Below, piece by piece: positions 40,370 to 58,120 of a DNA stretch of 64,000 bases. A program made the position numbers and the translations under genes. The notes beneath the pieces are model-generated. The model saw only the letters and a list, made by a program, of their open reading frames with translations. It did no database searches and was not told where the DNA came from. This stretch comes from Mycolicibacter virginiensis (lineage in GTDB: Bacteria > Actinomycetota > Actinomycetes > Mycobacteriales > Mycobacteriaceae), in contig NZ_CP092430.2 in the NCBI RefSeq assembly GCF_022374935.2, positions 4,836,001 through 4,900,000 of the forward strand. The letters run 5' to 3'. How positions within the stretch are numbered: the stretch's first letter is position 1; every line of letters begins with the position of its first letter.

Positions 40370-43300
40370 TCAGGACCGACTGAGCTCAGCCGCCTTGACC
40401 GTCTCCCATTCCTCGTCGGCGATCAGGTTTCGCCAGTCGACCGGCAGGGAGTCCAGCGCGTCCTCGATGCAGAACCACACCGATTCCAGCGGCGAGGCGC
40501 CCGGGGCAGCGGCGGTGATCCGGCTCTCCACGTCGTAGTTCGGGGCGTGCGGTGCATCGCTGAACGGTGCGAGCGCATTGATCGCGTCCATGACGTAACG
40601 CCGCAACTCGGCGTAGGGCCGGCCACGCAGCTCCTCGGGCAGGATGGGCCTGCCGAAGATGTAGTCCTGGGCGGCATGGCCGTAGGGCACTTCGAGCTTG
40701 TGCGGCAACGGCTCCTCGGGCAACCCGCCCGCGAAGTACACCGGCACGATCGGCATGGACATCTCGATCGCCATGTCCAGCAGTGTCGACGTCAGTCGCT
40801 CGACCCGCTGGCCCGAACTCACGCTGCGAGTCCCGTCGGCGTGCACCATGACCGACACTCCGAAGGCTGCACTCTCCCGCTTGAGCGCGTCGACCAACCC
40901 GAAGAACTCTTGGGGCTGCTGCTGGTCGAAATAGCGGAGATGGCCCAGCTCCTTGCCCGCCGCCGCGTCAATCATTCGCAGCAGGTTGCCGACCCAGCCG
41001 GTCTCGTGCTTGGCGTGGCCGATGGTGACGACTTTCGTGCCGGTCAGCCACGATCCGATAGTGGTGCCCAACAGCGATTCGACCTGCACCTGGTGATTGG
41101 CCAGCAGCAACACCGGCCGACCGCGCACGGCCGCCATCGCGGCCGGATCGGTGACCACAACGTGGCGCACGTAGCGCGACAACACCGCCCCCAGGGCCAG
41201 CTCGCCGAACCAGCCGTCCGGCATCCCCGCGCTCTCGGTCCACCAAGCTCGGACCGGCTCCCAGTCCGTTACCGATGACGCGCTCGCGCGGCACGCTCCC
41301 GGCCCGAGCTTCTCGACGTCGACCGTGATGCGCTCCAGCGGCAGCGCGGGGCAGCTCACCTGACCGCCGATGATCTGAACCCGGTCGGGGTGGACCGCGT
41401 TGTGGACTGCATCCGCGACCGCTTCCTTGGTGACGATGTCGAACATCAGCGAATCGCCTTGACTGTCGGTGCCGTACACGGCCTGCAACGTGCCCTTGAA
41501 CCAGTCGAGGGTCGCCATTCGGGCAGTGTTGAGCTCAAGGACGCCGCGCCCGAGACGCTCGCTCAGCGATAGGCCCGGGACCGCCTGCCGGTCACCCATG
41601 AAGGCGCGCCGTTCAGGGCCGCCGACTTCGGCCAGCGGCCCCTTGCTCAGCAGAAATTCGGCCATCCGGATACGCGCCCAAGGTTTTCCGGCGACGCTGA
41701 GCCACAGGTCAAAGGTCGGCATGCGGCCTTCGGCGTCGTCGAAGCCCACGAATCGCACTTCGACATCCACGGTTCCCGCCACAGGCGTGTCGGAGTAGAA
41801 CCGGGCCGAGAGGATGCGGCGCGGGAACCCGACATCGGGATCGCCGGCGTCGGCATACGACGCGGGGTCGGCGGTGTCGGTGGTCCACACACTCATCGCG
41901 GTGTGCGGTACGACGTGCAACGCGCCGTCCAACAGTCCCGGCTGCAGTTCGCCGGCCGGCACGGCACAACGGTCGATCGCCAGGGTTCCGGTTGAGCCGT
42001 TGCGGCCGATCCGGGCACCATCGGTCAGGGTCGCGAATGCCGGACCGTGAAACACCGTTCCGTCATAGGGGTCGGCGTAGGGCACCGCCCCTTCCAGGGG
42101 GGCGGGCGGCTCCGGTTCACCGGTGTACTGCGCGGCGGTGACGACAACGGCGTGTGCGTGAATCTCCCAGCGGGACAACTCGGCTCGCGGCGCATCACGC
42201 CAGACCTCGAGGCGTCCCTGGAAGCGCCCGGTCTCCTGCGTCTGCTCCAGCACGACCCGCAGCTGCTTCGGCGAGTCGACCACGACCCACCGAACCATCT
42301 GGACGTCGGTGATCTCGACGACCTTGGCTCCGCCGGAGGCCCGGGCCGCCGCCTGCGCGAACAGGTCCATGACCGACATCATCGGCAGCGACGGGATGAC
42401 GTAGGTCGGGCAGTGATCGACGATCCAGGAGTCGTTGATCGGATCGAGCGCGACGTCCATCGTGGTCGTCGCACCCACGGTGTTCTGCACTGCGGCAGCG
42501 GTATCCGCGGGTGCCGCCGACGCCGCGGGGGGTGCGACTGCGGCGGGCAGGGAAGTCGATGTGGATGTAGTGATGGCGCCGGCATCGGCCGGGGACTGCC
42601 GTTCCCCCGTGCCGGCGACGATGCGCATGCCCAGGTTGCTCGCGGTGTAGATGCGCTTGCCGTCCACCCACAGCGATGCCTCGGCCACCGCGAGGATGCC
42701 GGCGTCCTCGCGGACGATCCGGGTGATCTCTACCTGTGCGGCGATCTGCTTGTTGGTGGGGATGATCTGGCCGCGATACCGCCAGGTCATGGCGTCGTGC
42801 AGGGCAGCCGGCTCGAAGCGGGCCGCCGGGCCGGCTTCCTTACCGAGTCCGAGGTCGAGCATCCCGAATTGCAGGAGCTGCAAAAGCATTTCGATGCCCA
42901 GCGATCCCGGTTGGACGGGGTCGCCGAAGAAGTGCGCCTTGAAGTACCACTCGCCGGGGTTGACGTCTTTGACGCCGCGCCACTGGCCCAATCCGGCGGC
43001 GCCGCCGGTGGGCCAGCGTCCGGTGACCCGGTCGACCATCAGCAGCATCGGGTCCGCCAACCGCGCTCCGGCGCCGAAGAATTCGGCAGGCTGCGTGGTC
43101 AAATCGACCAGGGGCGCCTCGCACGGCTGCGCGAGCGAGGCACGTTGAGAGTCGCTGACCGGGAGACCTACCTGGTTCTGCAGCGCTTCGCGTTTGAAGT
43201 AGCCGAACACGGTGTCGAAGGTGTAGACCGGTCCGTCGTCGGCAATGATCTCCCCGTCGAAGCCGACGATGATGGTTCCCGCGGCCTTGGCGAGGCTCTT

Positions 43301-46300
43301 GAGCTTCACCTTGATTCGTAGCGTTCCGGTCGCCGGGGTCACCTCACGGTGTTGGGTTCCCGTCCCGTCCAGGTTGCGGAAGAACAGGTCCGCCTCACCA
43401 TCCAGCGGGCAGCCCACGTAGCTGGCCAGCCAGCCGCAGGGCTGCAGCGCGACCTCCATCAGCACCGCGTTGGGCATCGTCTCGTGGCCGTTGGCCGCGC
43501 CGTTCTCGGCGAAGTACCAGGCGTCGGCCGGGACGTCGTACTCCACGACGACTTCAGCGCCGGCCTTCATCACGCCGGTCTCACCGACCAGCTCGGTGAC
43601 CCGAGACATGAAGTGATACGGCGGACCGGGCAGCCGGGCCGCCTTGCGGGGCGAATCGAACTTCTCGAACAGCGGCCCAAAGGCCATGGACGGCTTGGCG
43701 ATCGCACTGGCGAGCATCGCCTGGTAGTCGTAGCGGAATCCGTTGGCCTCGGCGACCTGCTTGGGCTCGACGTAGCCTTCGAGCTCTTTGGCGCCGGAGT
43801 CCATCGGCCATCCCGGTGACAGCTTCAGGCCCATCCGCTCGCAGTGGAAGGCGGGCAATCCGTCGACGGTGCAGAGCAGGTCGGCGAAGAGCGTCGGCTC
43901 GGGTCCGGCGATCACCTCGCGAACGAACACTTCGTAGACCACCTCACGCGACTGCGGTGTGACCTGACCCCGGCAACGCAGCTTGTAGGTCTCGAAGGGA
44001 ACCGGTTCGAAGCGCCAGCCGTCGCAGTCGATCGTCATGCCCAGGGCGGTCATGTAGATCGCCATGGTCTGCATGGTCGCCTCGTACATCAGGGTGCCCG
44101 GCATGCAGGGGTCGTTCTTGAAATGGCCGGCGAAGAAGCAGTTCTCCGGCGTGACGGGCGCGACGGCTCGCAGGTAGCCGCGGCCCCACGGCCCACCGGT
44201 GAAGTCCAGATCCGTCACTTCGTCGACGAAGAGCATGTCGCCGGCGTGGATGCTGGGGGTGCGGGTGTGGCTGCCGGCGCGCTCGAAGCCCTCGCCGAAC
44301 GTCTGCCAGATCTCACCGGCGGCCATCGCCTCCAGGTCGGCACGCTGCAGTGAGGTGCGCGACGTCTGGGCCGGCGTCTGCTCCATCGGCCCGCTGACGG
44401 TCTGTTCCTCGGGGCGCCACAAGATCCCGCCGGATGCGGCCAACTCCTCGTCGGTGAAGAACCCGGCCTGGCCGTTACGCATCGACATCCGCTCGACGCC
44501 GTCGATCGTGCAGTCGTAGTGAAAGAAGAACAGCCGCACATCGCCTTGGCGGGCGTGGCCGTCCACATGGATGTCGAAGCGCAGGGTGTCGCCGATCTCG
44601 GGCAGGCCACCGAGGTAGGTGACCTCGCAGCCGAGCAACCGGTAGACCCGCTCGCTCTTGTTGAGCAGATCCGCGCCCATCCAGGAGATGAGCATCAGAT
44701 CGGCCTGCCCACTTTCGATCATGATGCCGGCGGGCATCCGATCCTGCTGGAGCCACCAGGAGTCGGCGGTGACATCGGTTTCGGTCCACAACGTTCCGGT
44801 GCCGTGGCGGGCCGGCTCGGCGTCGATGCCCAGCAGTCGATCCGCCAGCAGCAGTGGCGGTTCGGGCATCCGGACCTGCCGCAGGTACTGGTCCTGCTCG
44901 GCGAACGCCGGGCCGAAGATCTCGGAGATGTTGCCCGACGAGTGCACCCGCAGCCCGTCCTTGTCGAGCTTGAGGCCCACCGGTTCACGCTTGACCGTCG
45001 GCGCCGGGACCACCTTGTCGGCCGGCTTGACGGGCTGGATCGCCCGGCTTGCGCCCGCGGGCATGGCGGCGGCGGGCATGACGACGGCGGGTGCCGCGGC
45101 GGCTGCGGCCTGCGGCTCCGGTCGCGACGGCATCGCCGCGGCCACACCCAACGGCAGCCGGGCCAGCGACTCGGCGACCGGTGCCAGAACCGGAGGCATC
45201 GGGAGTTGTGTTGGCATGAATTGCTCCAGTTGATGAGGGGGGTTCGTTCCTGGGGCCGTGACGCGTGGTGGCAGATGGACCGCGGGCAGGTGCGCGGGGA
45301 AGTTGAGCCGGATAGGTTTCGCGGCGCCGTTGGCCGCTGGCGGCGCCGTCAGGGCCGCGGCCTGGAGCCCGGTCGCTGACGACACCAAGGTCACCTGCTG
45401 TCGCTGGTCGGCCATTCCGGTGAGTTCCACGGCGACGCGCCGTTGCTCGGACGTCCAGGGCTCGCCGTCGGGCCACACTCCGAGCGCTCCGTAGAGCACG
45501 CCGGCGGCCACATGCAGCAGTCCCGAAGCGGCGTGCGCGTGACCCAACAGGGCGGAAAGGTTCACCGCACCCGGAACGGTGCCCAGGTGCAGGCATTCGG
45601 CGTCCACCTGCTGATCGGGCAGCAGCGTCGCATACACCGGGTTACCGTCACGGCGCGCATCGGCGACGCGCTTGAGCACGAGAACGACGGCGGCGTCCGC
45701 GGGTATCTGCTCGTCGGCGTGCAGTAATGCCCGCGCCGCTGCCTGATGCACGGGTTCGCAGCTCAGGTCCACCGCCCCGACCACGGCGGCGTCGATCTCT
45801 CCGCGCCGCAATGCCCGCGCGGCCAGCTCAAGGGCGGTGGTGCCCGAGAGCTGTTCCCGCGACACCGTGAAACTGGGTCCCCGTAGATCGAATTGGCTAT
45901 TGAGACGGTTCGCCACGATGTTGGGCATGGCTCCCACGACGCCCGCGGCGGTCCACCCCGCAACGACGTCGTCGCGAGCCGCGGCGAGCCGGTCGGGCTC
46001 GTCGAATTCGTCTGCCAACCGCCAGCGCTGCCCGAACCGGGCGACTTCGGCGTCGCAGCCCATTCCGACGACGACGCTGGTGGTCTCCGGCGGCAAGCTC
46101 TTGATCAACTCGCCGATGCCCAGGGCCGCACCGAGCAACGCCAGTTGTTGGGGTTGGGTCTGTTTGAGGTCCGCAGGCGGGAAGCGGGTTTGGGTCAGGT
46201 CCAGGCTGACCTCATCCATGCGTGCCCCGCGGGCTCCGTCGGCCATGCCGGTGGGAATCGGCTGGCACGACTTCAAGTGCTCGGCGACTGAGGCCGTTTC

Positions 46301-47704
46301 GTGTCCGTCGCCGAGCAGGAGGCTCAGGCCGACGATCGCGATCTCCTGCTCGGTCCGGGGTGCGGTGACCGGTGGAGCCGGCGCTGGACCCCGTCCGCCG
46401 ACCCATTCTTCGAGCAGCAGGTGGGCATTGTTGCCGCCGAAGCCGAAGTTGTTGACCGCGGCCCGACGGGGTCCGTCGCTGTCCCACGGCTCAGCCTCGG
46501 TGAGCAGCCGGAATGGCGAGTCGGCGATGAAGGGCAGCGGCTCCTCGGCGTGCAGCGTCGGCGGACGTACCCCGGCACGCATCGCTGCCAGTACTTTGAT
46601 GGCTCCCGCTGCACCGGACGCCGTGATCGAGTGCCCCAGATTGGATTTCAGCGATCCGATGGGCACGTCTGTCATGCCGGCGAAGATCCGCGCCATGCTC
46701 ATCAGTTCGGTCAGGTCGCCGCGCGATGTTCCGGTGGCATGGCATTCGATGAGGGAGATGTCACGCGGCTCGAGTCCGGCCATCTCGTAGGCCAAGCGCA
46801 TCGCGCGTTCTTGGCCGTCCTGGGAGGGCACCAGAAATCCATGTCCCCGACCGTCGTTGCTCAAGCCGACGCCCCGAATGACGCCCAGGATGGTGTCGCC
46901 GTCGGCCATCGCATCGTCAAGGCGCCGCAACACCAGGATGGCCGCGCCCTCGGCCGGCACCAGCCCGTCGGCGCCGCTGTGGAACGGTCGTGACCGCCCC
47001 GTTCGACTCAGTGCCTGCAGGGCGGTGAAGCCGATGTGCAGCAGCAGATCACTGGCACCGTTGATGCCGCCGGCGAACATGACGTCGGCGGTGCGGTCAT
47101 GCAAGCGGTCGCAGGCCAGCTTGATGGCATACAGCGACGAAGCGCAGGCGGCGTCGAGCGCTGCGGCGCCGCCGCTCAGACCCAGGGCCTGCGCGATGAG
47201 ATGCGCCGGCAGCCCGGACATGAAGCGGTTGCGCCAGTCCACCCCGGGTTCGAGGCTGGATCCTTGCCCCCGCCAGACGGTTTCGGCGAGATCCGTCATC
47301 TTCTTTGTTGGGTAACTCAGGTTTCCCAGGACGATCCCAGCGGAACCGGGGACCTCACCTGCCCGCCATCCCGCACTGTCCAGGGCTTGTCTGGCCGCCT
47401 CGATTCCCCACCGGTAGAGCGGGTCCAGGCCGGCGAGGTCGTCAGCGTCGAGGAACAATCCGCGGGGATCGAATACGTCATCGAAGCCGCGGACGTAGCC
47501 GCCGCGGTCCGACCAGGTGTGGTCGAGTTCGGGTACGTCCGCCGGGGAACACAGGACGCGTGCCGGGGATACACCCCAGTAATCCGGGCCGGGCGAGCCC
47601 AGTGCGTCGCAGCCGTCGTGCACCGTTGTCCAGAGTTCACCCGCGTTCAGTCCCCCGGGTAGGACACAGCCCTGCCCGACGATCGCGATGGGATCAAACT
47701 TCAC
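40370..47704 (-). CDS. pfaC: PUFA-synthase-like megasynthase: KS-CLF-DH-DH-DH-acyltransferase
   Basis: A 2444-aa iterative lipid synthase subunit. In order: ketosynthase (1-440; Cys187, His322, His358); chain-length factor (452-780) with Gln618 replacing the active Cys; Ala/Pro linker; two FabA-like double-hotdog dehydratases (about 920-1300 with His1194 in GHFKNDPCMPG; about 1345-1700 with His1591 in HFFGDPVQPG); a PKS-type dehydratase (about 1750-2025; His1764, Asp1926); and a PlsC-like acyltransferase (about 2165-2444). In the last, NHQVQVE gives His2204 and Glu2209, and HADGTR replaces the usual FPEGTR. It follows the pfaA-like gene by 21 bases. It should condense and dehydrate the growing chain and finally transfer it to a glycerolipid. 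The product is unknown. Confidence 0.9.
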   Translation of the reverse strand: MKFDPIAIVGQGCVLPGGLNAGELWTTVHDGCDALGSPGPDYWGVSPARVLCSPADVPELDHTWSDRGGYVRGFDDVFDPRGLFLDADDLAGLDPLYRWGIEAARQALDSAGWRAGEVPGSAGIVLGNLSYPTKKMTDLAETVWRGQGSSLEPGVDWRNRFMSGLPAHLIAQALGLSGGAAALDAACASSLYAIKLACDRLHDRTADVMFAGGINGASDLLLHIGFTALQALSRTGRSRPFHSGADGLVPAEGAAILVLRRLDDAMADGDTILGVIRGVGLSNDGRGHGFLVPSQDGQERAMRLAYEMAGLEPRDISLIECHATGTSRGDLTELMSMARIFAGMTDVPIGSLKSNLGHSITASGAAGAIKVLAAMRAGVRPPTLHAEEPLPFIADSPFRLLTEAEPWDSDGPRRAAVNNFGFGGNNAHLLLEEWVGGRGPAPAPPVTAPRTEQEIAIVGLSLLLGDGHETASVAEHLKSCQPIPTGMADGARGARMDEVSLDLTQTRFPPADLKQTQPQQLALLGAALGIGELIKSLPPETTSVVVGMGCDAEVARFGQRWRLADEFDEPDRLAAARDDVVAGWTAAGVVGAMPNIVANRLNSQFDLRGPSFTVSREQLSGTTALELAARALRRGEIDAAVVGAVDLSCEPVHQAAARALLHADEQIPADAAVVLVLKRVADARRDGNPVYATLLPDQQVDAECLHLGTVPGAVNLSALLGHAHAASGLLHVAAGVLYGALGVWPDGEPWTSEQRRVAVELTGMADQRQQVTLVSSATGLQAAALTAPPAANGAAKPIRLNFPAHLPAVHLPPRVTAPGTNPPHQLEQFMPTQLPMPPVLAPVAESLARLPLGVAAAMPSRPEPQAAAAAAPAVVMPAAAMPAGASRAIQPVKPADKVVPAPTVKREPVGLKLDKDGLRVHSSGNISEIFGPAFAEQDQYLRQVRMPEPPLLLADRLLGIDAEPARHGTGTLWTETDVTADSWWLQQDRMPAGIMIESGQADLMLISWMGADLLNKSERVYRLLGCEVTYLGGLPEIGDTLRFDIHVDGHARQGDVRLFFFHYDCTIDGVERMSMRNGQAGFFTDEELAASGGILWRPEEQTVSGPMEQTPAQTSRTSLQRADLEAMAAGEIWQTFGEGFERAGSHTRTPSIHAGDMLFVDEVTDLDFTGGPWGRGYLRAVAPVTPENCFFAGHFKNDPCMPGTLMYEATMQTMAIYMTALGMTIDCDGWRFEPVPFETYKLRCRGQVTPQSREVVYEVFVREVIAGPEPTLFADLLCTVDGLPAFHCERMGLKLSPGWPMDSGAKELEGYVEPKQVAEANGFRYDYQAMLASAIAKPSMAFGPLFEKFDSPRKAARLPGPPYHFMSRVTELVGETGVMKAGAEVVVEYDVPADAWYFAENGAANGHETMPNAVLMEVALQPCGWLASYVGCPLDGEADLFFRNLDGTGTQHREVTPATGTLRIKVKLKSLAKAAGTIIVGFDGEIIADDGPVYTFDTVFGYFKREALQNQVGLPVSDSQRASLAQPCEAPLVDLTTQPAEFFGAGARLADPMLLMVDRVTGRWPTGGAAGLGQWRGVKDVNPGEWYFKAHFFGDPVQPGSLGIEMLLQLLQFGMLDLGLGKEAGPAARFEPAALHDAMTWRYRGQIIPTNKQIAAQVEITRIVREDAGILAVAEASLWVDGKRIYTASNLGMRIVAGTGERQSPADAGAITTSTSTSLPAAVAPPAASAAPADTAAAVQNTVGATTTMDVALDPINDSWIVDHCPTYVIPSLPMMSVMDLFAQAAARASGGAKVVEITDVQMVRWVVVDSPKQLRVVLEQTQETGRFQGRLEVWRDAPRAELSRWEIHAHAVVVTAAQYTGEPEPPAPLEGAVPYADPYDGTVFHGPAFATLTDGARIGRNGSTGTLAIDRCAVPAGELQPGLLDGALHVVPHTAMSVWTTDTADPASYADAGDPDVGFPRRILSARFYSDTPVAGTVDVEVRFVGFDDAEGRMPTFDLWLSVAGKPWARIRMAEFLLSKGPLAEVGGPERRAFMGDRQAVPGLSLSERLGRGVLELNTARMATLDWFKGTLQAVYGTDSQGDSLMFDIVTKEAVADAVHNAVHPDRVQIIGGQVSCPALPLERITVDVEKLGPGACRASASSVTDWEPVRAWWTESAGMPDGWFGELALGAVLSRYVRHVVVTDPAAMAAVRGRPVLLLANHQVQVESLLGTTIGSWLTGTKVVTIGHAKHETGWVGNLLRMIDAAAGKELGHLRYFDQQQPQEFFGLVDALKRESAAFGVSVMVHADGTRSVSSGQRVERLTSTLLDMAIEMSMPIVPVYFAGGLPEEPLPHKLEVPYGHAAQDYIFGRPILPEELRGRPYAELRRYVMDAINALAPFSDAPHAPNYDVESRITAAAPGASPLESVWFCIEDALDSLPVDWRNLIADEEWETVKAAELSRS

Positions 47705-47725
47705 TTCGAATCAGCCGCCGTCGAG

Positions 47726-50700
47726 TCAGCCGCCGTAGGGATACAACTCGAGTCGTTTGAGACTGATTACCAGCTGGTTGTCGGCGTCTACCAGATCAAG
47801 GTCGCAGACGGCACGGCTGGTCTTGGCGTCCCCGCCGGTGAGCACGCACCGCAGGCCCGCACCCAGCGCTCCGGATCGGTAGCGGACGATCTCGCCCACC
47901 CGCAGCGGAAGGACATTGCGGCCGAGCAGCTCGTAGCTCCAGACCAGTGCCGCCTGCAGGCATCCGTCGACGGCGGCCGGGTCAGTCGCCCAGCCCTCCC
48001 CCGCCCAGCCCACGGTCGTCAATCCGGACAGGTAGGCCGTCGCGGCGGTCTCGGCGCAGTCCACGCCGTCGAGCACCCGGAATGCGGAGCCGTGGAACAG
48101 TGCCCCACCGGTGTAGCAGGCGTCGCGGTCAATCCTGCGATTGCCCGGCGCCGGCACCGGGGCGCTGGCGACCGCGGCTGCGCCCGAACGCATCTCGAGT
48201 TTGGCCGAGTAGTAGACGGTCGAGTCTTCGATGTCGGAGAGCGTTACCGTCAGCAGTTCGGGCCGATCGTCGACGGGCACGCACCGCACCAGCAGGGGGT
48301 TGCCGTGCTTCTCGAACTCGTAGAGCGTCACACCGCGCAGCACCTTGAGGTCGAGCACCCGATCCACGTGGTGGCCGGGCCGGCATGCCTCGGCCATCCG
48401 GATGAACCATTCGAGTGCCTGCACGACGGGCAACACGACATTGCCCTGGACCCGGTGGTCCAGCAGGTAGGGCTGCTGGGTCACATGTGCGAGCACCCGG
48501 GCGACCCGGCCTTCAGGCGGGATCGGGTGCGTAGGCAGTCCGGCCAGTACGCCGTCGCCGAGGGTCACCTCGGAGGTTCCGGCGTCACCGTCCAGTACCT
48601 CGGCGGTGAACGCGCGCGCGCCGTCGGCCAGCGGGATCAAGGAGATGCCACGGGACTCGAACATCGCCTTGAGACCGGGTGTCACCATTCCGGAATCCCA
48701 AGGGCCCCAACCCAGCGCCCGCACCAAGCAGGATGGCCCGCGGCGTGCCTGCTCCGCCAGGGCCACCTTGTTGAGGATCTCATTGGCCATGGCGTAGTCG
48801 CTCTGCCCGACGTTTCCGCTGCGCGCGGCCACCGACGAAAACAGGCAGATCACCTTGAGCGCGTCGTTGGCCGTGGCATCCAGCAGCGCGCAGGCGCCGC
48901 CGACCTTGGTCTCGAAGACCCGGTCGAACCCGTCGAGGGTCTTCTTGTGCAGCGGCGCATCGGCCAGCACGCCGGCGCCGTGCACCAGGCCGGTGATGGG
49001 GCCGAACTCGTTTCGCACGCTGTCCAGCAACGCACCCAGCTGCGCGGTGTCCCGGACGTCGGCGGCGGCGTAGCGGACGCGGGAGCCGGCCGCGGTCAGC
49101 GCGGCCAAGGTGGCTCGCACCTCGCGGTCGGCCAGGATCCGCTGCGCCTGCTGCTCCAGCTGCTTCGGTGTGACCTTGAGGCCTTGCGCCGCAGCGCTGG
49201 CGAGCAGCGCCCGCTTGAGTTCCGCATCGGTGGTCAGGCCCTGGGCTTCCGGCGGTTCGTCGCTGAGTTCGGTGCGCCCGATCAACACGAACGCCGCCTG
49301 CGTCTGCTGTGCCAGAGCGATCACCGAACCGGCGGTCACTCCGCGGGCACCCCCGGAGACCACGATGACGTCTTGCTGGCCGATGCGTTGCGTGCGGGTG
49401 CTCACCTGCTGTGCACCCGCGACGACTGTGGTTCGCCCGTGCGAACTACCGAGGCCCACTTCGAGTTCCACTCCGCCCGCCAGAACTTCGTCGGCGATCT
49501 GCTCGGCGACGACTTGCGGGGAACGGTGGCCGACGGCGACGTCGATTGCCTTGACCTGTGCGCTGGTCCATTCCTGCGCAGCCGTCTTGGCCAGCGCGCC
49601 GATACCACCCGACCAAGCCCGCAGGCCGGGATCGGTGAGCAGACCGAACGTGCCACCGGTGTCTTGAACCGTGACGAAGACGCCGCCCTGTTCCGCGAAT
49701 TGCGCGGCGACGCGCTGTGCGTCGGCGAACAGCACCCGGTTGACGGCAAGCGCCTCAGCACGAGTGGTGATTGGCCGCAGTCCGCCCAGGTGAATGACCG
49801 CCTCGGCGTCGGCACTGGGCTGGGCCACGATCGCCGCGCGAATGCCGTGGGTGCGCAGAACTGCGGCCAGGGCCTCGGCCGTCGCAGTCAGCCCGTCCTG
49901 TGCTGCCTCGGCCGTCACGATCTCGACGGTCCTGGCGGCATACAGGCCGGGCATGCCCATTCCGCTCACCGGAGCGGCGGTGGCGCGTACCGCGTAACGC
50001 GCCACCTCCGCTCCGGTTAACTCAAAAGGGGCGCGATCACCTGCCGACAATCCGTTGGGCACCACCAGATCCGGTGGTGATGAACCCATCAGTGATTGCA
50101 GGTAGTCGACGATCTCCTGCAGCGTCACCAACGCCGCCATCGTCGCGGTCTCCACCTCAGGCAACGACGGAACCCGGTCCTGCACCGCCGACAAGATCTC
50201 AACCCGCTTAATCGAGTCGATCCCCAGATCCGCCTCAAGCGCCATCGACAGATCCAGCATCTCCACCGGATAACCAGTCTTGTCAGCAACCACCGCCAAC
50301 ATGTCCCCGACCAAATCCACACCCGCAACCGCGGCCGGCGCGGGCGCAACAGCCACCGGAGCAACCGGAGCGGCCGGCGCGGGCGCAGCAGCCGGCGCAG
50401 GCGCGGCCGCAACAGGCGCAGCCGCCGGACCCATCAACGACTGCAGGTAGTCAACGATCTCCTGCAGCGTCACCAACGCCGCCATCGTCGCGGTCTCCAC
50501 CTCAGGCAACGACGGAACCCGGTCCTGCACCGCCGACAAGATCTCAACCCGCTTAATCGAGTCGATCCCCAGATCCGCCTCAAGCGCCATCGACAGATCC
50601 AGCATCTCCACCGGATAACCAGTCTTGTCAGCAACCACCGCCAACATGTCCCCGACCAAATCCACACCCGCAACCGCGGCCGGCGCGGGCGCAACAGCCA

Positions 50701-53700
50701 CCGGAGCAACCGGAGCGGCCGGCGCCGGCGCCGGCGCAACAACCGACGCCGGCGCGGCCGCAACAGGCGCAGCCGCCGGACCCATCAACGACTGCAGGTA
50801 GTCAACGATCTCCTGCAGCGTCACCAACGCCGCCATCGTCGCGGTCTCCACCTCAGGCAACGACGGAACCCGGTCCTGCACCGCCGACAAGATCTCAACC
50901 CGCTTAATCGAGTCGATCCCCAGATCCGCCTCAAGCGCCATCGACAGATCCAGCATCTCCACCGGATAACCAGTCTTGTCAGCAACCACCGCCAACATGT
51001 CCCCGACCAAATCCACACCCGCAGCCGCGGCCGGCGCGGGCGCAACAGCCACCGGAGCAACCGGAGCGACAGCAACAGGGGCCGGAGCAGGCGGCGCCGG
51101 CATCGTCGCGACCGCAGCAGCAGCGGCCACCGGCGCCGGTGCTACCGGTACCGGTGCCGGTGCCGGGGGTGCGCTGACGGGGGCCGGCGGAACCGCAGGC
51201 GGCGCAGGCATGGCCGGCGCCGGCGGCGGCGGCGGCGCGACCACCGGCGGTGCCGGAGTGGCCGCCACGCCATAGGGGGCTACCGGCTGAGCCGGCACCA
51301 CTGTGGTGCCGGCCGGGAAAGCCAACTGGTTGACCGGCATCGGCGCCATCCCGGTGCTGGAGACCAGGGTCTGCAGCAGGCCCTGCAGGTGGGCGATGGT
51401 CTGCTGCATGCTGCCCAGCGCACCGACCATGTGCGTCACCATCTCGGCTCCGGGACCGGACATCAGCGGCGAGGTCACCATCGGAACGGCGGCGGCCTGG
51501 ACCGGCACCGGGACGTGCGTCGGGACGTGTGCTGGCAACCCGTTCGCCGCGGGAACGGTTGGATGAGCTGCTGTCATGGGGGGCTCCGATACGGTCGCGT
51601 GGCCGTTGTGGTCACTGCGGGGGGTGGATTTCTCAGATCTTTCGGATATCTCAAATTCTTCCGATACCTCAGCGGACCGCTGCACCGGCTCGTCGTTGAT
51701 GTCAGGTCGGCCGAAGTTGGTGCCGTTGAGCTTCATCGTCAGCTTGGGGGCAGGACGGGTTCGCGGATCGTCACCGTGGCGGTAGTCGGCCCACAGGGCT
51801 TCGAAGTTCATCGGAACGCCGGCGGCCACCAGCTGGGCCAAGCCCATCCACAGCGATCGAATCCCATTCCTGCCCTTGGCATCCAGGGAGACTGCGACGT
51901 GGTCCTGGCCGGTCAGGCACTTGCCGACGAGGTTGGTGAGCACGCTGCCGGGGCCGACCTCGACAAAGGTTCGGGCGCCAGCGGACCACATCGCCTGAAC
52001 CTGCTCGACGAACCGCACGGGCTGCGCGATCTGGTTGGCCAGCGTGGCCTGCATCTGCTCGGCGCTGCCGACGTACGGCTGGGCTGTTGCGTTGGCGTAA
52101 ACGGGCACCTGCGGCACCCCGAACGGAATGCCCGCCAGGTACGAGCCGAACGGGGCCGCTGCCGAACTGACGATCTCGGAGTGGAACGCCGTGGCGACGT
52201 CGAGGAGGCGCGCATTCATGCCCGCTGCGCTGAACCGCTGTGCGGCATCGGCGATCGCCGCACTGTCGCCCGAGAGCACGACTTGGTTGGGGGCGTTGTG
52301 GTTGGCGATGACCACCGACAGGCCCCACTCACCGAGAAGCCTGCTGACCTGCTCGGCCGGCGCGGTCACGGCGCACATCGCGCCGTCGCTGCTGGCGGCG
52401 GCCTGGGCCATCAGCGCACCGCGCGCGCGTGCGATGAGCAGCGCGACGTCGTCACTGATCACTCCCGCCGCGCACAGCGCGCTGACCTCGCCGAAGCTGT
52501 GGCCGCCGACGGCGACCGGCGCGATGCCCAGCGAGCGCACTATCGACAGCAGGCTGAGGCTGTGTGCACCGATGCCCGGCTGCGCCCATTCCGTCTTGGT
52601 CAGCTCGGCGGCCTGAGCCGCGCGGTCTTCCTCGCTGAACGCCGTTTTAGGCCAGACGACATCGTGCAGGTCGCGGTCTGCGTTGAGCAGGCCGGCACGC
52701 GCGAGTTCCCAAGGCGCCAAGGCGGGTTCGTAGAGTTGCGGGATGTCGGCACCCATGCCGACGTACTGGCTGCCCTGTCCGGGAAACAGCAGCGCGACCG
52801 GGCCGGCTTGTTGGCAGGAGTAGTAGTAGCCCTTGGGCGAGCTGAATGACGTCTCCCCGCTGGCGGTTTGCAGCTTGGCGGCGGCTTCGGTGAGCATCGT
52901 GCGCAGGCCCTCGACGCTGTTGGCGACGACTGCGAGGCGGTGCGGGGGGGTGGCGTCATATGCCGATTGCGTGCTGCGCGCGAGGTAGCCGAGCAGGTCC
53001 GGGGAGTCGACCAGCGAGGCGGCCAGCTCCCCAGCCTGCGCGGCCAGCGCTGCCGCGGATTCCGCGCCGAGAACCACGAGCTCGGAGTCCCACGAGCGGT
53101 AGCGTGGCGCGTGCTTCCCGGCGCCGGCGTACTCCTCGAGCGTGATGTGGAAGTTCGTACCGCCGAAGCCGAACGCGCTGACCGAGGCGCGGCGCGGCAC
53201 ATTCTGGTCGGCGATCCACGGCTTGGTCTGCGTCGACAGGTAGAACGGCGACGATTCGATCTCGAGCCCGGGGTTGGGACGGTCGATCTTGATGGTCGGC
53301 GGGAGGGTCTTGTGGTGCAGTGCCATCACGGTCTTGAACAGCCCGCAAGCCCCGGCAGCTCCCTTGGTGTGCCCGACCTGAGACTTGACCGAACCGACGG
53401 CGCACCATTGCCGGTCGGTCCGGCCGGACTCGTCGAACACCCGGCGCAGGGCGGTGAACTCGGCGACGTCGCCGGCTTTGGTGCCGGTGCCGTGGGCTTC
53501 GACGAGGCCGACCGTCTCCGGTCCGTAGCCGGCGGCTTCGTAGGCGCGGCGCAGGGCCTTGGCCTGCCCATCGGGACTGGGGGCGTAGATGCTCTTGGCC
53601 CGGCCATCCGAGGAGGTGCCGATGCCGCGGATCACGGCGTAGATCCGGTCGCCGTCGCGCTCCGCGTCGTCGAGGCGCTTGAGCGCCAGCATGGACAAAC

Positions 53701-54517
53701 CCTCGCCGAGCATGGTGCCGTCCGACTGGTCGGAGAACGGACGGCAGTCGCCGGTGCGCGACAGCGCGGTGACCTTGGCGAAGCACATGAACATGAAGAT
53801 GTCGTTGAAGGCGTCGACGCCGCCGGCGATCACCATGTCGGCCTCGCGCAGGTACAGCTCGTGCAGTGCGATCTCGATAGCGGCCAGCGAACTGGCGCAT
53901 GCGGCGTCGACAACGCAGTTCGTTCCGCCGAGGTCAAACCGGTTGGCGATGCGCCCGGCGATGACGTTGCCAAGCAGGCCGGGGAAGGTGTTCTCCTGCC
54001 ACGGGGTGTAGCCCGACGCGACGCGCTCGCTGAACGCGGTGAGCTCGTGGTCGGAGAGGCCTGCGGCGCGCAGGCCGCGTTCCCAGATCGGCCGATGCAG
54101 CCGACCGCTCATGTAGCCGGACATCTCGGTTCCGCCGGACGAACCCAGCACGACGCTGACACGTTCGCGGTCGATACCGGAGATGTCGCCGCCGGCGTAG
54201 TCCTCCAGCACTTGCTGCGCGACCCGCAGCGCCAGCAGCTGGGCGGTGTCGGTCGCGGGCACGACGTTCGGCGGAATGCCGAAGTCCATCGGCGAGAAGT
54301 CGACGGTGGGCAAGAACCCCCCGCGACGGGCGTATACCTTGTCGGGCGTGCGAGGATCTGCGTCGAAATAGTCGTCGATCCGCCAGTGCGACTCCGGTAT
54401 GTCGGAGAACAGGTCCGCGCCCTCGACGATGTTGCGCCAGAATCGCTCGGCTTCTTCGGACCCGGGAAACAGCGCGCTGACGCCGACCACTGCGACAGGT
54501 GGATGTTTGGCTACCAC
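47726..54517 (-). CDS. pfaA: PUFA-synthase-like megasynthase: KS-AT-ACPx3-KR-DH
   Basis: A 2263-aa iterative synthase subunit. In order: ketosynthase (1-465; Cys207, His342, His383); malonyl-CoA transacylase (575-910; GHSFG with Ser674, His779); long Ala/Pro linker (about 980-1165); three ACPs with phosphopantetheine serines 1203, 1320 and 1435 in LGIDSIKR; ketoreductase (about 1710-1940; SGGARGVTA, Tyr1908); and a PKS-type dehydratase (about 1995-2263; His2021 in HRVQGNVVLP, Asp2184 in DGCLQ). GTG 54517 follows AAGGAG. This organisation matches PfaA/Pfa2 of PUFA synthases. All catalytic residues I can check are present. A phosphopantetheinyl transferase is needed and is not in the window. 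Confidence 0.92.
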   Translation of the reverse strand: MVAKHPPVAVVGVSALFPGSEEAERFWRNIVEGADLFSDIPESHWRIDDYFDADPRTPDKVYARRGGFLPTVDFSPMDFGIPPNVVPATDTAQLLALRVAQQVLEDYAGGDISGIDRERVSVVLGSSGGTEMSGYMSGRLHRPIWERGLRAAGLSDHELTAFSERVASGYTPWQENTFPGLLGNVIAGRIANRFDLGGTNCVVDAACASSLAAIEIALHELYLREADMVIAGGVDAFNDIFMFMCFAKVTALSRTGDCRPFSDQSDGTMLGEGLSMLALKRLDDAERDGDRIYAVIRGIGTSSDGRAKSIYAPSPDGQAKALRRAYEAAGYGPETVGLVEAHGTGTKAGDVAEFTALRRVFDESGRTDRQWCAVGSVKSQVGHTKGAAGACGLFKTVMALHHKTLPPTIKIDRPNPGLEIESSPFYLSTQTKPWIADQNVPRRASVSAFGFGGTNFHITLEEYAGAGKHAPRYRSWDSELVVLGAESAAALAAQAGELAASLVDSPDLLGYLARSTQSAYDATPPHRLAVVANSVEGLRTMLTEAAAKLQTASGETSFSSPKGYYYSCQQAGPVALLFPGQGSQYVGMGADIPQLYEPALAPWELARAGLLNADRDLHDVVWPKTAFSEEDRAAQAAELTKTEWAQPGIGAHSLSLLSIVRSLGIAPVAVGGHSFGEVSALCAAGVISDDVALLIARARGALMAQAAASSDGAMCAVTAPAEQVSRLLGEWGLSVVIANHNAPNQVVLSGDSAAIADAAQRFSAAGMNARLLDVATAFHSEIVSSAAAPFGSYLAGIPFGVPQVPVYANATAQPYVGSAEQMQATLANQIAQPVRFVEQVQAMWSAGARTFVEVGPGSVLTNLVGKCLTGQDHVAVSLDAKGRNGIRSLWMGLAQLVAAGVPMNFEALWADYRHGDDPRTRPAPKLTMKLNGTNFGRPDINDEPVQRSAEVSEEFEISERSEKSTPRSDHNGHATVSEPPMTAAHPTVPAANGLPAHVPTHVPVPVQAAAVPMVTSPLMSGPGAEMVTHMVGALGSMQQTIAHLQGLLQTLVSSTGMAPMPVNQLAFPAGTTVVPAQPVAPYGVAATPAPPVVAPPPPPAPAMPAPPAVPPAPVSAPPAPAPVPVAPAPVAAAAAVATMPAPPAPAPVAVAPVAPVAVAPAPAAAAGVDLVGDMLAVVADKTGYPVEMLDLSMALEADLGIDSIKRVEILSAVQDRVPSLPEVETATMAALVTLQEIVDYLQSLMGPAAAPVAAAPASVVAPAPAPAAPVAPVAVAPAPAAVAGVDLVGDMLAVVADKTGYPVEMLDLSMALEADLGIDSIKRVEILSAVQDRVPSLPEVETATMAALVTLQEIVDYLQSLMGPAAAPVAAAPAPAAAPAPAAPVAPVAVAPAPAAVAGVDLVGDMLAVVADKTGYPVEMLDLSMALEADLGIDSIKRVEILSAVQDRVPSLPEVETATMAALVTLQEIVDYLQSLMGSSPPDLVVPNGLSAGDRAPFELTGAEVARYAVRATAAPVSGMGMPGLYAARTVEIVTAEAAQDGLTATAEALAAVLRTHGIRAAIVAQPSADAEAVIHLGGLRPITTRAEALAVNRVLFADAQRVAAQFAEQGGVFVTVQDTGGTFGLLTDPGLRAWSGGIGALAKTAAQEWTSAQVKAIDVAVGHRSPQVVAEQIADEVLAGGVELEVGLGSSHGRTTVVAGAQQVSTRTQRIGQQDVIVVSGGARGVTAGSVIALAQQTQAAFVLIGRTELSDEPPEAQGLTTDAELKRALLASAAAQGLKVTPKQLEQQAQRILADREVRATLAALTAAGSRVRYAAADVRDTAQLGALLDSVRNEFGPITGLVHGAGVLADAPLHKKTLDGFDRVFETKVGGACALLDATANDALKVICLFSSVAARSGNVGQSDYAMANEILNKVALAEQARRGPSCLVRALGWGPWDSGMVTPGLKAMFESRGISLIPLADGARAFTAEVLDGDAGTSEVTLGDGVLAGLPTHPIPPEGRVARVLAHVTQQPYLLDHRVQGNVVLPVVQALEWFIRMAEACRPGHHVDRVLDLKVLRGVTLYEFEKHGNPLLVRCVPVDDRPELLTVTLSDIEDSTVYYSAKLEMRSGAAAVASAPVPAPGNRRIDRDACYTGGALFHGSAFRVLDGVDCAETAATAYLSGLTTVGWAGEGWATDPAAVDGCLQAALVWSYELLGRNVLPLRVGEIVRYRSGALGAGLRCVLTGGDAKTSRAVCDLDLVDADNQLVISLKRLELYPYGG
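50111..50327 (-). repeat. ACP-3 coding repeat, identical 217-bp unit
   Basis: This is one of three 217-base blocks identical to each other by eye, encoding most of an acyl carrier protein including the phosphopantetheine serine (codon 50213-50215). Spacing to the next block is 345 bases. Only the Ala/Pro linkers outside the blocks differ. Confidence 0.92.
50456..50672 (-). repeat. ACP-2 coding repeat, identical 217-bp unit
   Basis: Middle copy of the three identical ACP blocks; the serine codon is at 50558-50560. The spacing of 345 and 351 bases to its neighbours is in frame (115 and 117 codons). Confidence 0.92.
50807..51023 (-). repeat. ACP-1 coding repeat, identical 217-bp unit
   Basis: First ACP in the protein; the serine codon is at 50909-50911. 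It is identical in sequence to the other two blocks, which points to recent duplication or ongoing gene conversion. Confidence 0.92.
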
Positions 54518-54775
54518 AGGTCTCCTTAAGAACAGCCTTGACGCAAAGCATCGAAAGCCTAAGTTTCGCCATCAGAGACGGTGAATTGCAGCTGGGGGTC
54601 CGCTGATCATCCCGATGGCCAGACGCTGCCGGGACAATATCAGAGTGTTGCCGCCATCACACATCGAAGACGTCCGCCCTGAGCTGGGCGTACATTACAG
54701 TCGTCCGCCCAAATGTCACGACAGTGGGCCGGTGAACTGCTAGAAATCGCGCAACCGGCGCGTGGCGCCGAGCGG

Positions 54776-56422
54776 TCAGACTGCCAGCGGTCGGGGCCTG
54801 TAGGCGAATGCGTCGGACGGGACGGGCACCCCGCAGGAGCGCGCCGCACTGGCGCGGGTCACGTGGGCGGCACCTTCAAGCAAGTTAAGGGCGACCTGGA
54901 CGGCCTGGCGATTCTCGCACGCCTCCAGGTGGCTGCCCGCAACCCAGCTGTTGAACGCGCCCATGGCCGGGCCGCACCAGATCTGGTAATCCAGCACTCG
55001 CTCGGGAATCCCGCTGATGGCCCACCGGCTCGACTGCCCCAGATACCAGCGGAAGACCAGTGCCATCTGGTATTTCGGGTCCCTGGAGGCGAGTTCGAGG
55101 ACCGCCGGGTCACGCAGTTGCCAGTACCGCTGAGTGTCCGCCCATACCTCGGCGACGGAGGTGCCCAGGATCTTCTCCAGCTCGGGGCCGTGCTTGGCGA
55201 CCACGCTGGCCAGGTCAGGGTTGCCCGCGTACCACTCGTAGAGCTTCTTGCCGCGCGGGGCGAACATCGTTCCCCGTTTGAGTACCTGCAGGTTGACGCC
55301 CATTTCGAACATGTCCGAGGCGGGGGCCATCATGACGTCCGCGATGCCGGCCTTGGCGAGCATGGCGCGCCCGGGCGCTGAAAGGCCCGACTCCACGCAG
55401 GCCTGGTTGACGGTCCCGGTCAGCACGTAGGCCGCGCCCATCGCGAAGGCGCCGGCGACGGCCTGCGGTGCGCCCAGGCCGCCCGCAGCACCCACCCGCA
55501 CCCGGCAGTTCAGCTGGTGCTGCTGGGCCAGCGAGTCGCGCAGCATGACGATCTCGGAGAAAAGCGCCGGCAGCGGGCGGTTGTCGGTATGCCCGCCGCT
55601 GTCGGATTCGACGGTGATGTCCTCGGCCACCGGAACATACCGAGACAGGTCGGCTTCGCGCTGGGTCAGCTTTCCGGCCGCTACCAATGCGGACACCAGC
55701 GCCGCCGGCGCCGGCTCCATGAACATGCGCGCCACCTCGGGCCGCGACACCTTGGCCATCACGTGGTTGCGGCGCACGATGTTGCCGGCCGGATCGGTGT
55801 CCAGTCCCGACAGTGCGTAGTGCACCACCGCGGGGGTCAGCTTCATGAATGCCGACGCCTCGACGACGGGAACGCCGCGCGCGATGAAGAGTTCGGCGAC
55901 GCGTGTCTCCAGGGAGGCCTCGTTGGGCGAGTGGATCAGGTTGGCTCCCCAGGCGAGACCGGGCCGGCCGGCCAAAGCCGCCTGAATCTCGGCCAGCCCC
56001 CGCTCCACCGCCTCGTAGGAGAGCCCGCCCGCACCGAAGAAGCCCATCATTCCGGCCTCGGCCATCGCGATGACCAGCGCCGGCGTCGCGATGCCGTTGG
56101 CCATCGCACCGGTGACATAGGGGAAGCGGACGCCGTGCGCCTCACAGAATTCGCGGTCTCCCAGCCACTCGGGGTAGATCGCGGGCAGGGTTCCTTCCAG
56201 GGCGAACTCCGATTCCCCGGCCCCGACCAACTCACCGCCCCGGGCCAGGCCAAGCATCCCGGTGGCCGTTTCGCGCACCACGTGCAGGGGGGTGCGTACG
56301 TCGCCGATGATATCGGCGATGTCCTGCGGGGCGAACGCGGCGGACGCGGCGATGGGGCGCCAACCCAGGCCCAAGCTCGCGCCGGTCTGCTGATCCAGTA
56401 CTACGCCAGGTCGCTCGTTCAC
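54776..56422 (-). CDS. pfaD: PfaD-family enoyl reductase (FMN, NPD-like) of PUFA-type synthase
   Basis: A 548-aa FMN-dependent trans-acting enoyl reductase. The 2-nitropropane-dioxygenase-like TIM barrel includes VTGAMANGIATPALVIAMAE, MGFFGAGGLS and the phosphate-binding VGAAGGLGAPQAVAGAFAMG (about residues 315-335). The C-terminal helical region has DPKYQMALVFRWYLGQSSRW, typical of PfaD. It reduces selected enoyl intermediates, so that unreduced ones stay as double bonds. It is first in transcription order, 258 bases ahead of the KS-AT-ACP-KR-DH gene; a second promoter in that gap is possible. Confidence 0.92.
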   Translation of the reverse strand: MNERPGVVLDQQTGASLGLGWRPIAASAAFAPQDIADIIGDVRTPLHVVRETATGMLGLARGGELVGAGESEFALEGTLPAIYPEWLGDREFCEAHGVRFPYVTGAMANGIATPALVIAMAEAGMMGFFGAGGLSYEAVERGLAEIQAALAGRPGLAWGANLIHSPNEASLETRVAELFIARGVPVVEASAFMKLTPAVVHYALSGLDTDPAGNIVRRNHVMAKVSRPEVARMFMEPAPAALVSALVAAGKLTQREADLSRYVPVAEDITVESDSGGHTDNRPLPALFSEIVMLRDSLAQQHQLNCRVRVGAAGGLGAPQAVAGAFAMGAAYVLTGTVNQACVESGLSAPGRAMLAKAGIADVMMAPASDMFEMGVNLQVLKRGTMFAPRGKKLYEWYAGNPDLASVVAKHGPELEKILGTSVAEVWADTQRYWQLRDPAVLELASRDPKYQMALVFRWYLGQSSRWAISGIPERVLDYQIWCGPAMGAFNSWVAGSHLEACENRQAVQVALNLLEGAAHVTRASAARSCGVPVPSDAFAYRPRPLAV

Positions 56423-56605: not shown

Positions 56606-58120
56606 GTGGGTCAACTACCGATGGCGCCCCTGCCGCGCCGACGTTCCGGGCTGCGGCAGATCACCGACGGTCTCGGCAAGCTCGACGCCGAAGTCTTCGA
56701 GGCAATCGCCCACTCGCCCAGCCGACTACTCGACACCACCATGCCAGTCCTTACCCGCGCCGCCGACCACTCCAAGCTGTGGCTGGCTCTGGCAGCCGCC
56801 ATGGCCGCGACCGGGGGCCCGGCAACTCAGCGGGGCGCCGCGCGCGGAGTGGCCAGCCTGGCACTGACCAGCTTGGTGACCAACCAAGTGATCAAACGGA
56901 TCCGACCACGCGCACGCCCCAACATCCTGCTGGTGCCCCTGCTGCGCCGCGCCCACCGGCTACCGCTGTCGAACTCGCTGCCATCCGGACACTCCGCGAG
57001 CGCGGCGGCGTTCGCCACCGGAGTGGGCCTGGAGAACCCGCTGCTGGGACTGCCCGTCGCGGGTCTGGCCGGCCTGGTCGGTCTGTCCCGCGTCGCCACC
57101 GGCGTCCACTATCCCGGGGACGTACTCGCCGGATTGGGCATCGGTGCGTCGATCGCGGTGGCCGGGGCAAGGCTAGTGCCGCCGATAGCCTCCCCGCCCA
57201 CGCCCCACACCACGGCCCTGCGTGTCCCCGCCCCCGCACGTCCCGACGGCAAGCGCGTGACGTTGGTGGTCAATCCCGAGTCCGGCGACGGGCGCTCGGC
57301 AGTGGTCGCGGCGCAGGTGCGCGAAGCACTACCGGCCATCACCATCGTCGAGGTCGGGCCCGAGGACGATCTGGCCGAATCGTTGCGCCGCGCCGCCCGT
57401 TCCGCCGAGGTGCTCGCGATCGTCGGCGGCGACGGCTCGGTCGCAACAGCCGCGCACGTGGCGGTGGAACACGACCTGCCGCTGGCGGTGTTTCCCGGCG
57501 GCACGTTGAACCACTTCGCCAAGGACATCGGCTGCGACACCACCGCAAAGACCATCCGGGCCATCGCCGACGGCAGCTTGTCGCGGGTGGACGTGGTGCG
57601 GTTCAACGACGAGACAACCATCATCAATACGGCAAGCATCGGCGCCTATCCGACGTTCGTGCGCCGCCGGGAACGGTTGCAGGGCAAGCTCGGAAAGCCC
57701 GTAGCCAGCGCGTACGCCATGCTGATGACGTTGCGTCGTGAACGGCCGGTGCGCATCTCCTACGACAACAAGATCCTGCAGACGTCGCTGTTCTTCCTCG
57801 GCAACTCGGCCTATCAGCCCGACGGCTTCGCGCCGGCCGTACGGCACCGGATGGACGACGGGTTGTTGGATGTGCGGATCCTGGAGACCGGCCGGCCGTG
57901 GTCCACGTTGCGCATCCTGGCGGCACTGCTGACCGGACGGCTGCAACGCAGTCGGCTCTACCACGAGTTGCGGGTTCCGCAGTTCCGCTTTACCGCAGTC
58001 GACGGACCGGTGCCGATCGCCCACGACGGAGAGGTCGATACCCCTTGTGCGGAGGCCGAATTCACTGCGTGCTACCGCGCATTACAGGTGTTCAGGCCCC
58101 TGCCCTCGGGCTCACGGTAG
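56606..58120 (+). CDS. PAP2 phosphatase / diacylglycerol kinase fusion
   Basis: A bifunctional 504-aa protein. The N-terminal PAP2 (type 2 phosphatidate phosphatase) domain, about residues 15-185, has KRIRPRARP, LPSGHSASAAAF and SRVATGVHYPGDVLAG, the three catalytic motifs, among hydrophobic helices. The C-terminal diacylglycerol/lipid kinase domain (about 210-500) has NPESGDGRS and the GGDGSVATAAH nucleotide motif. GTG 56606 follows GGAGGA; ATG 56621 is an alternative. The two activities interconvert a phosphorylated lipid and its dephosphorylated form. It is divergent from the PUFA-synthase-like operon, suggesting a role in handling its product. Confidence 0.87.
   Translation: MGQLPMAPLPRRRSGLRQITDGLGKLDAEVFEAIAHSPSRLLDTTMPVLTRAADHSKLWLALAAAMAATGGPATQRGAARGVASLALTSLVTNQVIKRIRPRARPNILLVPLLRRAHRLPLSNSLPSGHSASAAAFATGVGLENPLLGLPVAGLAGLVGLSRVATGVHYPGDVLAGLGIGASIAVAGARLVPPIASPPTPHTTALRVPAPARPDGKRVTLVVNPESGDGRSAVVAAQVREALPAITIVEVGPEDDLAESLRRAARSAEVLAIVGGDGSVATAAHVAVEHDLPLAVFPGGTLNHFAKDIGCDTTAKTIRAIADGSLSRVDVVRFNDETTIINTASIGAYPTFVRRRERLQGKLGKPVASAYAMLMTLRRERPVRISYDNKILQTSLFFLGNSAYQPDGFAPAVRHRMDDGLLDVRILETGRPWSTLRILAALLTGRLQRSRLYHELRVPQFRFTAVDGPVPIAHDGEVDTPCAEAEFTACYRALQVFRPLPSGSR

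Follow-up and report, generated by a model that had tools for sequence, protein, structure and literature searches.

Here we describe a three-gene pfa locus in Mycolicibacter virginiensis that probably encodes a polyunsaturated fatty acid (PUFA) synthase, of an enzyme family mainly associated with the sea and with myxobacteria. The locus lies in a stretch of 64,000 nucleotides of contig NZ_CP092430.2 (positions 4,836,001 to 4,900,000), to which we refer, at its full length, as the window. A first-pass annotation had placed three same-direction genes at 40370..56422, and the open reading frames (ORFs) are present as placed, all on the minus strand. Their contents were given there as an enoyl reductase (ER), a KS-AT-ACP3-KR-DH protein and a KS-CLF-DH-DH-DH-acyltransferase protein (KS, ketosynthase; AT, acyltransferase; MAT, malonyl/acyltransferase; ACP, acyl carrier protein; KR, ketoreductase; DH, dehydratase; CLF, chain-length factor), assignments now borne out by TIGR and Pfam matches and by motifs (Table 1). 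Because the gap between pfa2 and pfa3 is only 21 bp, these two genes probably form an operon.

Table 1. Genes and domains of the pfa locus (window coordinates; PKS, polyketide synthase; PSDH, PKS-type dehydratase)
Feature	Position	Strand	Size and evidence
pfaD (pfa1), FMN enoyl reductase	54776..56422	minus	548 aa; TIGR02814, PDB matches
pfa2 (pfaA-like), KS-MAT-ACPx3-KR-DH	47726..54517	minus	2263 aa; TIGR02813, Pfam domains
Pfa2 KS	53123..54508	minus	Pfam, KS tree, motifs
Pfa2 malonyl/acyltransferase	51905..52798	minus	Pfam, motif
Three tandem ACPs	50033..51016 (limits approximate)	minus	GIDSIK motifs
Pfa2 KR	48695..49366	minus	Pfam
Pfa2 PKS-type DH	47735..48487	minus	Pfam, motifs
pfa3 (pfaC-like), KS-CLF-DH-DH-PSDH-acyltransferase, without PfaB-type AT	40370..47704	minus	2444 aa
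Pfa3 KS	46397..47695	minus	Pfam, tree, motifs
Pfa3 chain-length factor, KS fold without Cys	45305..46342	minus	tree, motif
FabA-type dehydratase pair 1	43775..44989 (limits approximate)	minus	Pfam, motifs
FabA-type dehydratase pair 2	42605..43744 (limits approximate)	minus	Pfam, motifs
PKS-type dehydratase-like domain	41375..42469	minus	PF21089 below cut-off; His and Asp motifs
C-terminal acyltransferase, AGPAT/PlsC fold	40373..41374	minus	NHX4E and GTR motifs, model

Domains and integrity of the three proteins

The matches of PfaD and Pfa2 to NCBI curated models are far above chance. PfaD scores 593 bits against TIGR02814 pfaD_fam (cut-off 449), and its best PDB sequence matches are PfaD entries (6lkc, 4yx6); Pfa2 scores 1580 bits against TIGR02813 omega_3_PfaA (cut-off 1010). 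Thus the comparison with PUFA synthases proposed in the first-pass annotation places both proteins above the PfaA and PfaD cut-offs, and the locus carries a PfaD-type enoyl reductase, a PfaA-type KS-MAT-ACPn-KR protein and a KS-CLF followed by two FabA-type dehydratases, as expected of Pfa synthases. Pfam finds KS, AT, three ACP, KR and PS-DH domains in Pfa2. The catalytic residues noted earlier were all located, namely KS Cys/His/His, MAT Ser, KR Tyr, DH His/Asp and the three ACP GIDSIK motifs at Pfa2 residues 1200, 1317 and 1432, while the CLF of Pfa3 lacks the catalytic Cys; we take the KS, MAT, KR, DH, ACP and CLF motifs to have their customary meanings. A phosphopantetheinyl transferase is available, with two PF01648 matches elsewhere in the source genome. 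Between ACP repeats 1 and 2 there are 5 differences in 285 nucleotides, against 35-36 for repeat 3 (window 50033-51016), and this near-identity would fit a recent duplication or gene conversion.

Pfam FabA matches three stretches of Pfa3, in which we read DH1 and DH2 as FabA-type, each apparently combining a pseudo and a catalytic hotdog. The three dehydratases of the first-pass annotation are therefore present, with the refinement that the first two are FabA-type and the third is PKS-type and only weakly matched by Pfam (PF21089, E 2.4e-4, 21.4 bits, cut-off 27). A PfaB-type second AT is absent from Pfa3 by domain search; since Sorangium cellulosum So ceGT47 likewise lacks this AT, we do not take it as defining for the class of synthases, Type L, to which the locus is compared below. 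The C-terminal acyltransferase scores 21.2 bits against PF01553 (cut-off 23), a model that all 50 family members examined match with an E of at most 1. Its predicted structure, compared by VIA-align 2, has a PlsC/GPAT fold, which together with the HX4D/E motif makes it a predicted member of the PlsC/AGPAT family.

None of the three ORFs contains an internal stop. Over Pfa2 and Pfa3 the dN/dS ratio is 0.086-0.105 between the window and the related loci L042, L043 and L046, and 0.21-0.23 against L051; these low values indicate that both proteins are maintained under purifying selection. A pseudogene was ruled out by the absence of stops and the dN/dS of about 0.1 in Pfa2 and Pfa3, and from these same sequence data the frameshifts that might have overturned the first-pass reading did not appear.

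Relation to known synthases

The KS/CLF tree comprises 63 rows, 61 of them different, with the window domains entered twice (as the window and among the loci of its own genome); identified phleic-acid PKS and marine Pfa sequences are outside its sampling. Pfa2 KS, Pfa3 KS and CLF each belong to a separate PUFA-type clade (SH-aLRT 100, 99 and 100, respectively) shared with Sorangium, Azospirillum and others, apart from a clade of the source genome's modular PKS KS domains (97) and another of fatty-acid-synthase-type enzymes (95). Against mycobacterial PKS models Pfa2 scores far below the cut-offs (Pks2_ls1, 431 bits of 2400; Pks13, 366 of 2100). A mycobacterial type I PKS (Pks13, Pks2/MAS, others) was ruled out by this tree and these scores, and a placement within a mycobacterial PKS family, which the first-pass annotation had named as the result that would overturn it, was not obtained. 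A trans-AT PKS with a PfaD-like ER was also rejected as the identity of the locus. Among the genomes searched, 24 exceeded the PfaD cut-off; five that looked trans-AT-PKS-like were set aside, those numbered G031, G065, G072 and G094 with giant PKS ORFs nearby and G096 with an ER ORF that also matches AT and no KS seen within 20 kb. G066, at a contig end, was also left out.

Type L synthases have been defined by pfaD at the 5′ end and a fused pfaBC with KS-CLF-DH2-AT (Shulse and Allen 2011, PMC3098273), and the window corresponds in gene order and domains if the final AT of that definition is taken as the terminal acyltransferase. Carriers include Streptomyces coelicolor, Nakamurella and Sorangium So ce56, and the same paper notes many pfa-like 'secondary lipid synthases' whose products are unknown. 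Aetherobacter is placed in Type L as well, and AGPAT is described as special to this type (PMC4882568). Sorangium cellulosum So ceGT47 (L118) shares with the window the pfa1-pfa2-pfa3 order, a KS-AT-ACPn-KR-DH Pfa2 and a KS-CLF-DH-DH-PSDH-AGPAT Pfa3 without AT; it differs in sequence (45 % identity in the best Pfa3 segment, 58 % in PfaD) and has four ACP motifs by the pattern that finds three in the window. The myxobacterial style seen by the first-pass annotation thus holds for gene order and terminal acyltransferase, but the layout is not peculiar to myxobacteria: it recurs in metagenome-assembled genomes (MAGs) filed as Terriglobia (L092) and Planctomycetota (L099). Azospirillum has the same layout except that an AT is added and no DH was found in its Pfa2; in an actinobacterium of the same class as the window (G340) the cluster is a variant that includes AT but lacks the terminal acyltransferase.

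Compared by description, the pfa1-3 loci of Aetherobacter and Minicystis resemble the window in order and terminal AGPAT but differ in having an AT inside Pfa3 and in making longer PUFAs such as arachidonic, eicosapentaenoic and docosahexaenoic acids (PMC4882568, PMC8436480). Marine PfaB is reported to determine the final product (PMC12895367), and its AT has been equated with the AT of Aetherobacter Pfa3 (PMC4882568), and a review states that S. cellulosum has a pfa3 without AT and makes linoleic acid as its sole PUFA (PMC4882568).

The marine pfaABCD systems (Shewanella, Moritella) share their core chemistry with synthases of the window's type. Pfa2 and PfaD fit the TIGR02813 and TIGR02814 models; unlike the marine systems, the window has no separate PfaB, begins with pfaD and ends in an acyltransferase. 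In other actinobacteria, a predicted Nocardia pfaA with KS-AT-ACP2-KR (PMC4035055) is similar, by description, as a PfaA-like PKS. Closer to home, PUFA-synthase-like hybrid PKS-NRPS loci (NRPS, nonribosomal peptide synthetase) are reported from M. fortunisiensis, Mycolicibacterium sp. CBMA 234 and M. simulans (PMC13291983, June 2026), and these clade IV hybrids likewise place Pfa-like genes in mycobacteria. A description of a stand-alone Type L cluster in mycobacteria was not found in searches of the open-licence PMC literature.

Relatives, subfamilies and gene neighbourhoods

A scan of GTDB contigs with two peptide patterns gave 484 Pfa3 relatives, of which the best 80 were analysed; none of these 80 is a Streptomyces locus. 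Twenty-six are filed as Mycobacterium or Mycolicibacter, including M. heraklionensis (two), nonchromogenicus, engbaekii, arupensis, icosiumassiliensis, triplex, paraense, ahvazicum, numidiamassiliense (two), simiae, simulans, szulgai, angelicum, rhizamassiliense, intermedium (two) and one MAG. The remaining 54 comprise Sorangium cellulosum and 53 contigs from MAGs, many of which are Myxococcota. An AT in Pfa3 is present in 18 of the 80 and in none of the 26, some loci being incomplete. Closest among the 80 is a strain filed as M. heraklionensis, with 97 % identity in the best Pfa3 segment and nine flanking genes at 93-98 %. Flanking genes are common to seven Mycolicibacter-group loci (L042-L046, L050, L055), whose flanks were compared with window proteins only, and are not shared with other mycobacterial loci apart from one 32 % match to a short-chain dehydrogenase/reductase in L066. 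A contig filed under an 'Opitutia' MAG (L067) has a Pfa3 72 % identical to that of the window, as close as other mycobacteria, and is probably a misbinned mycobacterial contig. In M. rhizamassiliense (L065) Pfa3 is split across two ORFs, and in one M. intermedium copy (L110) the PSDH domain was not found.

Two subfamilies can be distinguished by Pfa3. Subfamily A, that of the window, has KS-CLF-DH-DH-PSDH-AGPAT without AT, whereas subfamily B has KS-CLF-AT-DH-DH without PSDH and AGPAT and is 44-47 % identical to A over Pfa3. Genomes were surveyed with two candidates scored per genome at E 1e-60, so that genomes with several loci or with both A and B may be undercounted, and A or B was assigned by the extent of the profile match with only part of the loci read. 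By this measure, 24 of 297 Mycobacterium genomes carry A and 34 carry B, one of them both (G023, M. simulans); two have the acyltransferase part alone and 238 have no match. Across Actinomycetota 8 of 396 genomes matched, only two outside the genus Mycobacterium. The survey of mycobacterial genomes suggested in the first-pass annotation therefore reveals a scattered minority, and the pfa locus is rare and patchy in mycobacteria.

Subfamily A forms one clade (support 100) whose sister is without support, and B another, which stands beside Azospirillum in the free tree (99). A tree that joins A and B in one clade is not rejected, its log-likelihood being 57 below that of the free tree (p-AU 0.138). 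The stem branch of the mycobacterial clade is long (0.38), and no donor lineage for A can be named from the trees. Within A, a 65-row tree nests Mycolicibacter among other A2 sequences, from which a 24-row tree separates it by one branch (support 71). A clade of slow-grower A sequences without Mycolicibacter is rejected (p-AU 0.007), this group having been picked post hoc from the tree. Ancient duplication and transfer may both be considered for the history inside A.

PKS, NRPS and fatty acyl-AMP ligase (FAAL) genes are absent from the Pfam-scanned ORFs of the window (several short or doubtful ORFs fall outside the scan), among which the synthase stands alone. Elsewhere its neighbours differ. 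After the subfamily-A pfa genes of M. triplex, ahvazicum, numidiamassiliense and rhizamassiliense come genes for an ArsP-type permease, a FAAL-type ligase and a PKS (KS and AT). Permease and ligase occur in L047, L053, L056/L058, L065, L179 and L180, and the PKS also in L047, L053, L056, L058 and L065; L179 ends earlier and L180 belongs to the same genome as L065. Full Pfam domains were read for the PKS of M. triplex only, a single reducing module whose KS groups with a PKS of the source genome (99). From their sequences, L047, L053, L056, L058 and L065 are possible PUFA-PKS hybrid lipid loci. In G031 (L177, 1149-8367) permease, FAAL and PKS are kept and pfa is reduced to a broken acyltransferase remnant, 66 % identical, so that the synthase has here been lost by natural deletion. 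G490 (L178, 7110-7796) has a partial acyltransferase alone, 50 % identical and without stops.

The flanks of subfamily B, examined at five loci, hold MmpL, major facilitator superfamily (MFS) and glycosyltransferase-like genes (G014, G056, G009), PKS and FAAL (G049) or, in G023, an NRPS whose last domain is a reductase. Pfam was run on the MmpL and MFS of G014 (L122) only, the remaining neighbours in G014, G056 and G009 being judged from protein starts. Sugar-nucleotide-like genes also lie beside B pfa in L122-L124 and L127-L128, which could be polyunsaturated glycolipid loci. Of the two pfa loci of M. simulans, the NRPS adjoins the AT-containing B locus; in the locus of the window's subfamily (L059) an NRPS was not recognised in 2.2 kb upstream and 10 kb downstream. 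We infer that subfamily B corresponds to the clade IV hybrids, although the NRPS of strain FB-527 is described as ending in a TIGR01720 domain (PMC13291983) and the G023 piece read here ends in a reductase. Because these neighbours differ, the synthase seems to be a module serving several lipids.

Proposed function and product

We consider it quite probable that an iterative, stand-alone PUFA synthase of Type L and Sorangium-type architecture is encoded here and is functional, its likely product being a C18-range methylene-interrupted PUFA in glycerolipids. In this scheme the three ACPs would be armed by a phosphopantetheinyl transferase from another locus of the genome, presumably PptT; MAT would load malonyl, and Pfa2 KS and Pfa3 KS-CLF would elongate the chain, with CLF setting its length. 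KR, the FabA-type dehydratase/isomerases, the PKS-type DHs and PfaD would process each cycle, some double bonds being shifted to cis and retained. Without a PfaB-type AT, the PlsC-like C-terminal domain would move the chain from ACP to a lysophospholipid-like acceptor, giving membrane or storage glycerolipids that carry, for example, 18:2. This C18-range product is a guess by analogy, made because AT-less S. cellulosum is said to make no PUFA but linoleic acid and PfaB is reported to determine the product. Several points weigh against the proposal. The link between the missing AT and the product is a possible explanation offered in the review, for a Sorangium strain other than L118; the acyltransferase has HX4E, and a D in the window replaces the E of the family consensus EGTR, so its acceptor may not be lysophosphatidate; and the FAAL and PKS adjoining the synthase in several mycobacteria suggest that the chain can feed a larger lipid.

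This last point leads to an alternative that we hold to be unlikely for the window, in which an unsaturated acyl chain from the synthase serves enzymes encoded elsewhere in the genome as the starter of a larger envelope lipid or lipopeptide. The permease-FAAL-PKS arrangement in four species, the grouping of the M. triplex KS with a PKS of the source genome, and the NRPS, PKS/FAAL or MmpL beside B speak for it, but no such partner was found among the scanned window ORFs and the fusion of an acyltransferase speaks for a chain that is passed straight to its acceptor. An iterative lipid synthase with a product that is not methylene-interrupted (a hydroxylated, conjugated or mostly saturated long chain) would suit the many secondary lipid synthases with unknown products, the long clade stem and the divergent third dehydratase; the architecture and catalytic motifs are nevertheless those of a PUFA synthase, with the domain order of Sorangium, and make this improbable. 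Phleic acids are attributed to a different PKS. They are polyunsaturated mycobacterial chains (PMC11633156), in connection with which MmpL10, PE and fadD23 are named. The shared polyunsaturation would favour a trehalose-polyphleate-type or other known mycobacterial PKS locus, an identity that we judge extremely improbable given a KS and CLF outside the clade of the genome's PKS (in a tree without the phleic-acid PKS) and Pfa2 scores far under the PKS cut-offs.

If the synthase works as proposed, it provides a second mycobacterial route to polyunsaturated chains besides phleic acids, bears on the lipid profiles of M. heraklionensis, arupensis, szulgai, simiae and others, and offers, as an AT-less PUFA synthase, a system for how a missing PfaB-type AT and a fused acyltransferase set the product. 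A bolder extension strikes us as rather doubtful: that some slow-growing and terrae-group mycobacteria, including opportunistic ones, make PUFA without oxygen-dependent desaturases; that the PlsC-like domain esterifies a phosphatidylinositol-mannoside- or trehalose-type envelope acceptor to give an undescribed polyunsaturated lipid; and that the synthase is a movable module coupled elsewhere to FAAL/PKS, NRPS or MmpL/glycosyltransferase. The nearest architecture with a reported product, that of Sorangium, is associated with ordinary linoleic acid, and no report of linoleic acid in the M. terrae complex was found in a search of the open-licence PMC literature.

A PAP2/diacylglycerol-kinase gene (56612-58120) next to pfaD was considered as a pfa partner, but among the relatives only L042 and L043 have it beside the cluster; in most other loci the sequence covers just 1-3 kb ahead of pfaD. 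The loci of M. simulans, szulgai and angelicum (L059, L063, L064; Pfam on L059, the others by similarity) have a gene for a cNMP-binding/patatin phospholipase close to pfa, to which no match was found in the window. The window's MmpL gene (8442-11363) is about 29 kb from the cluster, with no evidence found of belonging to it. An ARAGORN tRNA-Arg call at 14846-14942 lies inside a cytochrome bd subunit II ORF (14501-15541) and is probably false. In a Myxococcales MAG (L068, 16153-18084), an ACP_syn_III-type gene, which we read as possibly OleA-like, and an alpha/beta hydrolase directly follow pfa3, an arrangement that calls to mind the marine link between PUFA and long-chain hydrocarbons.

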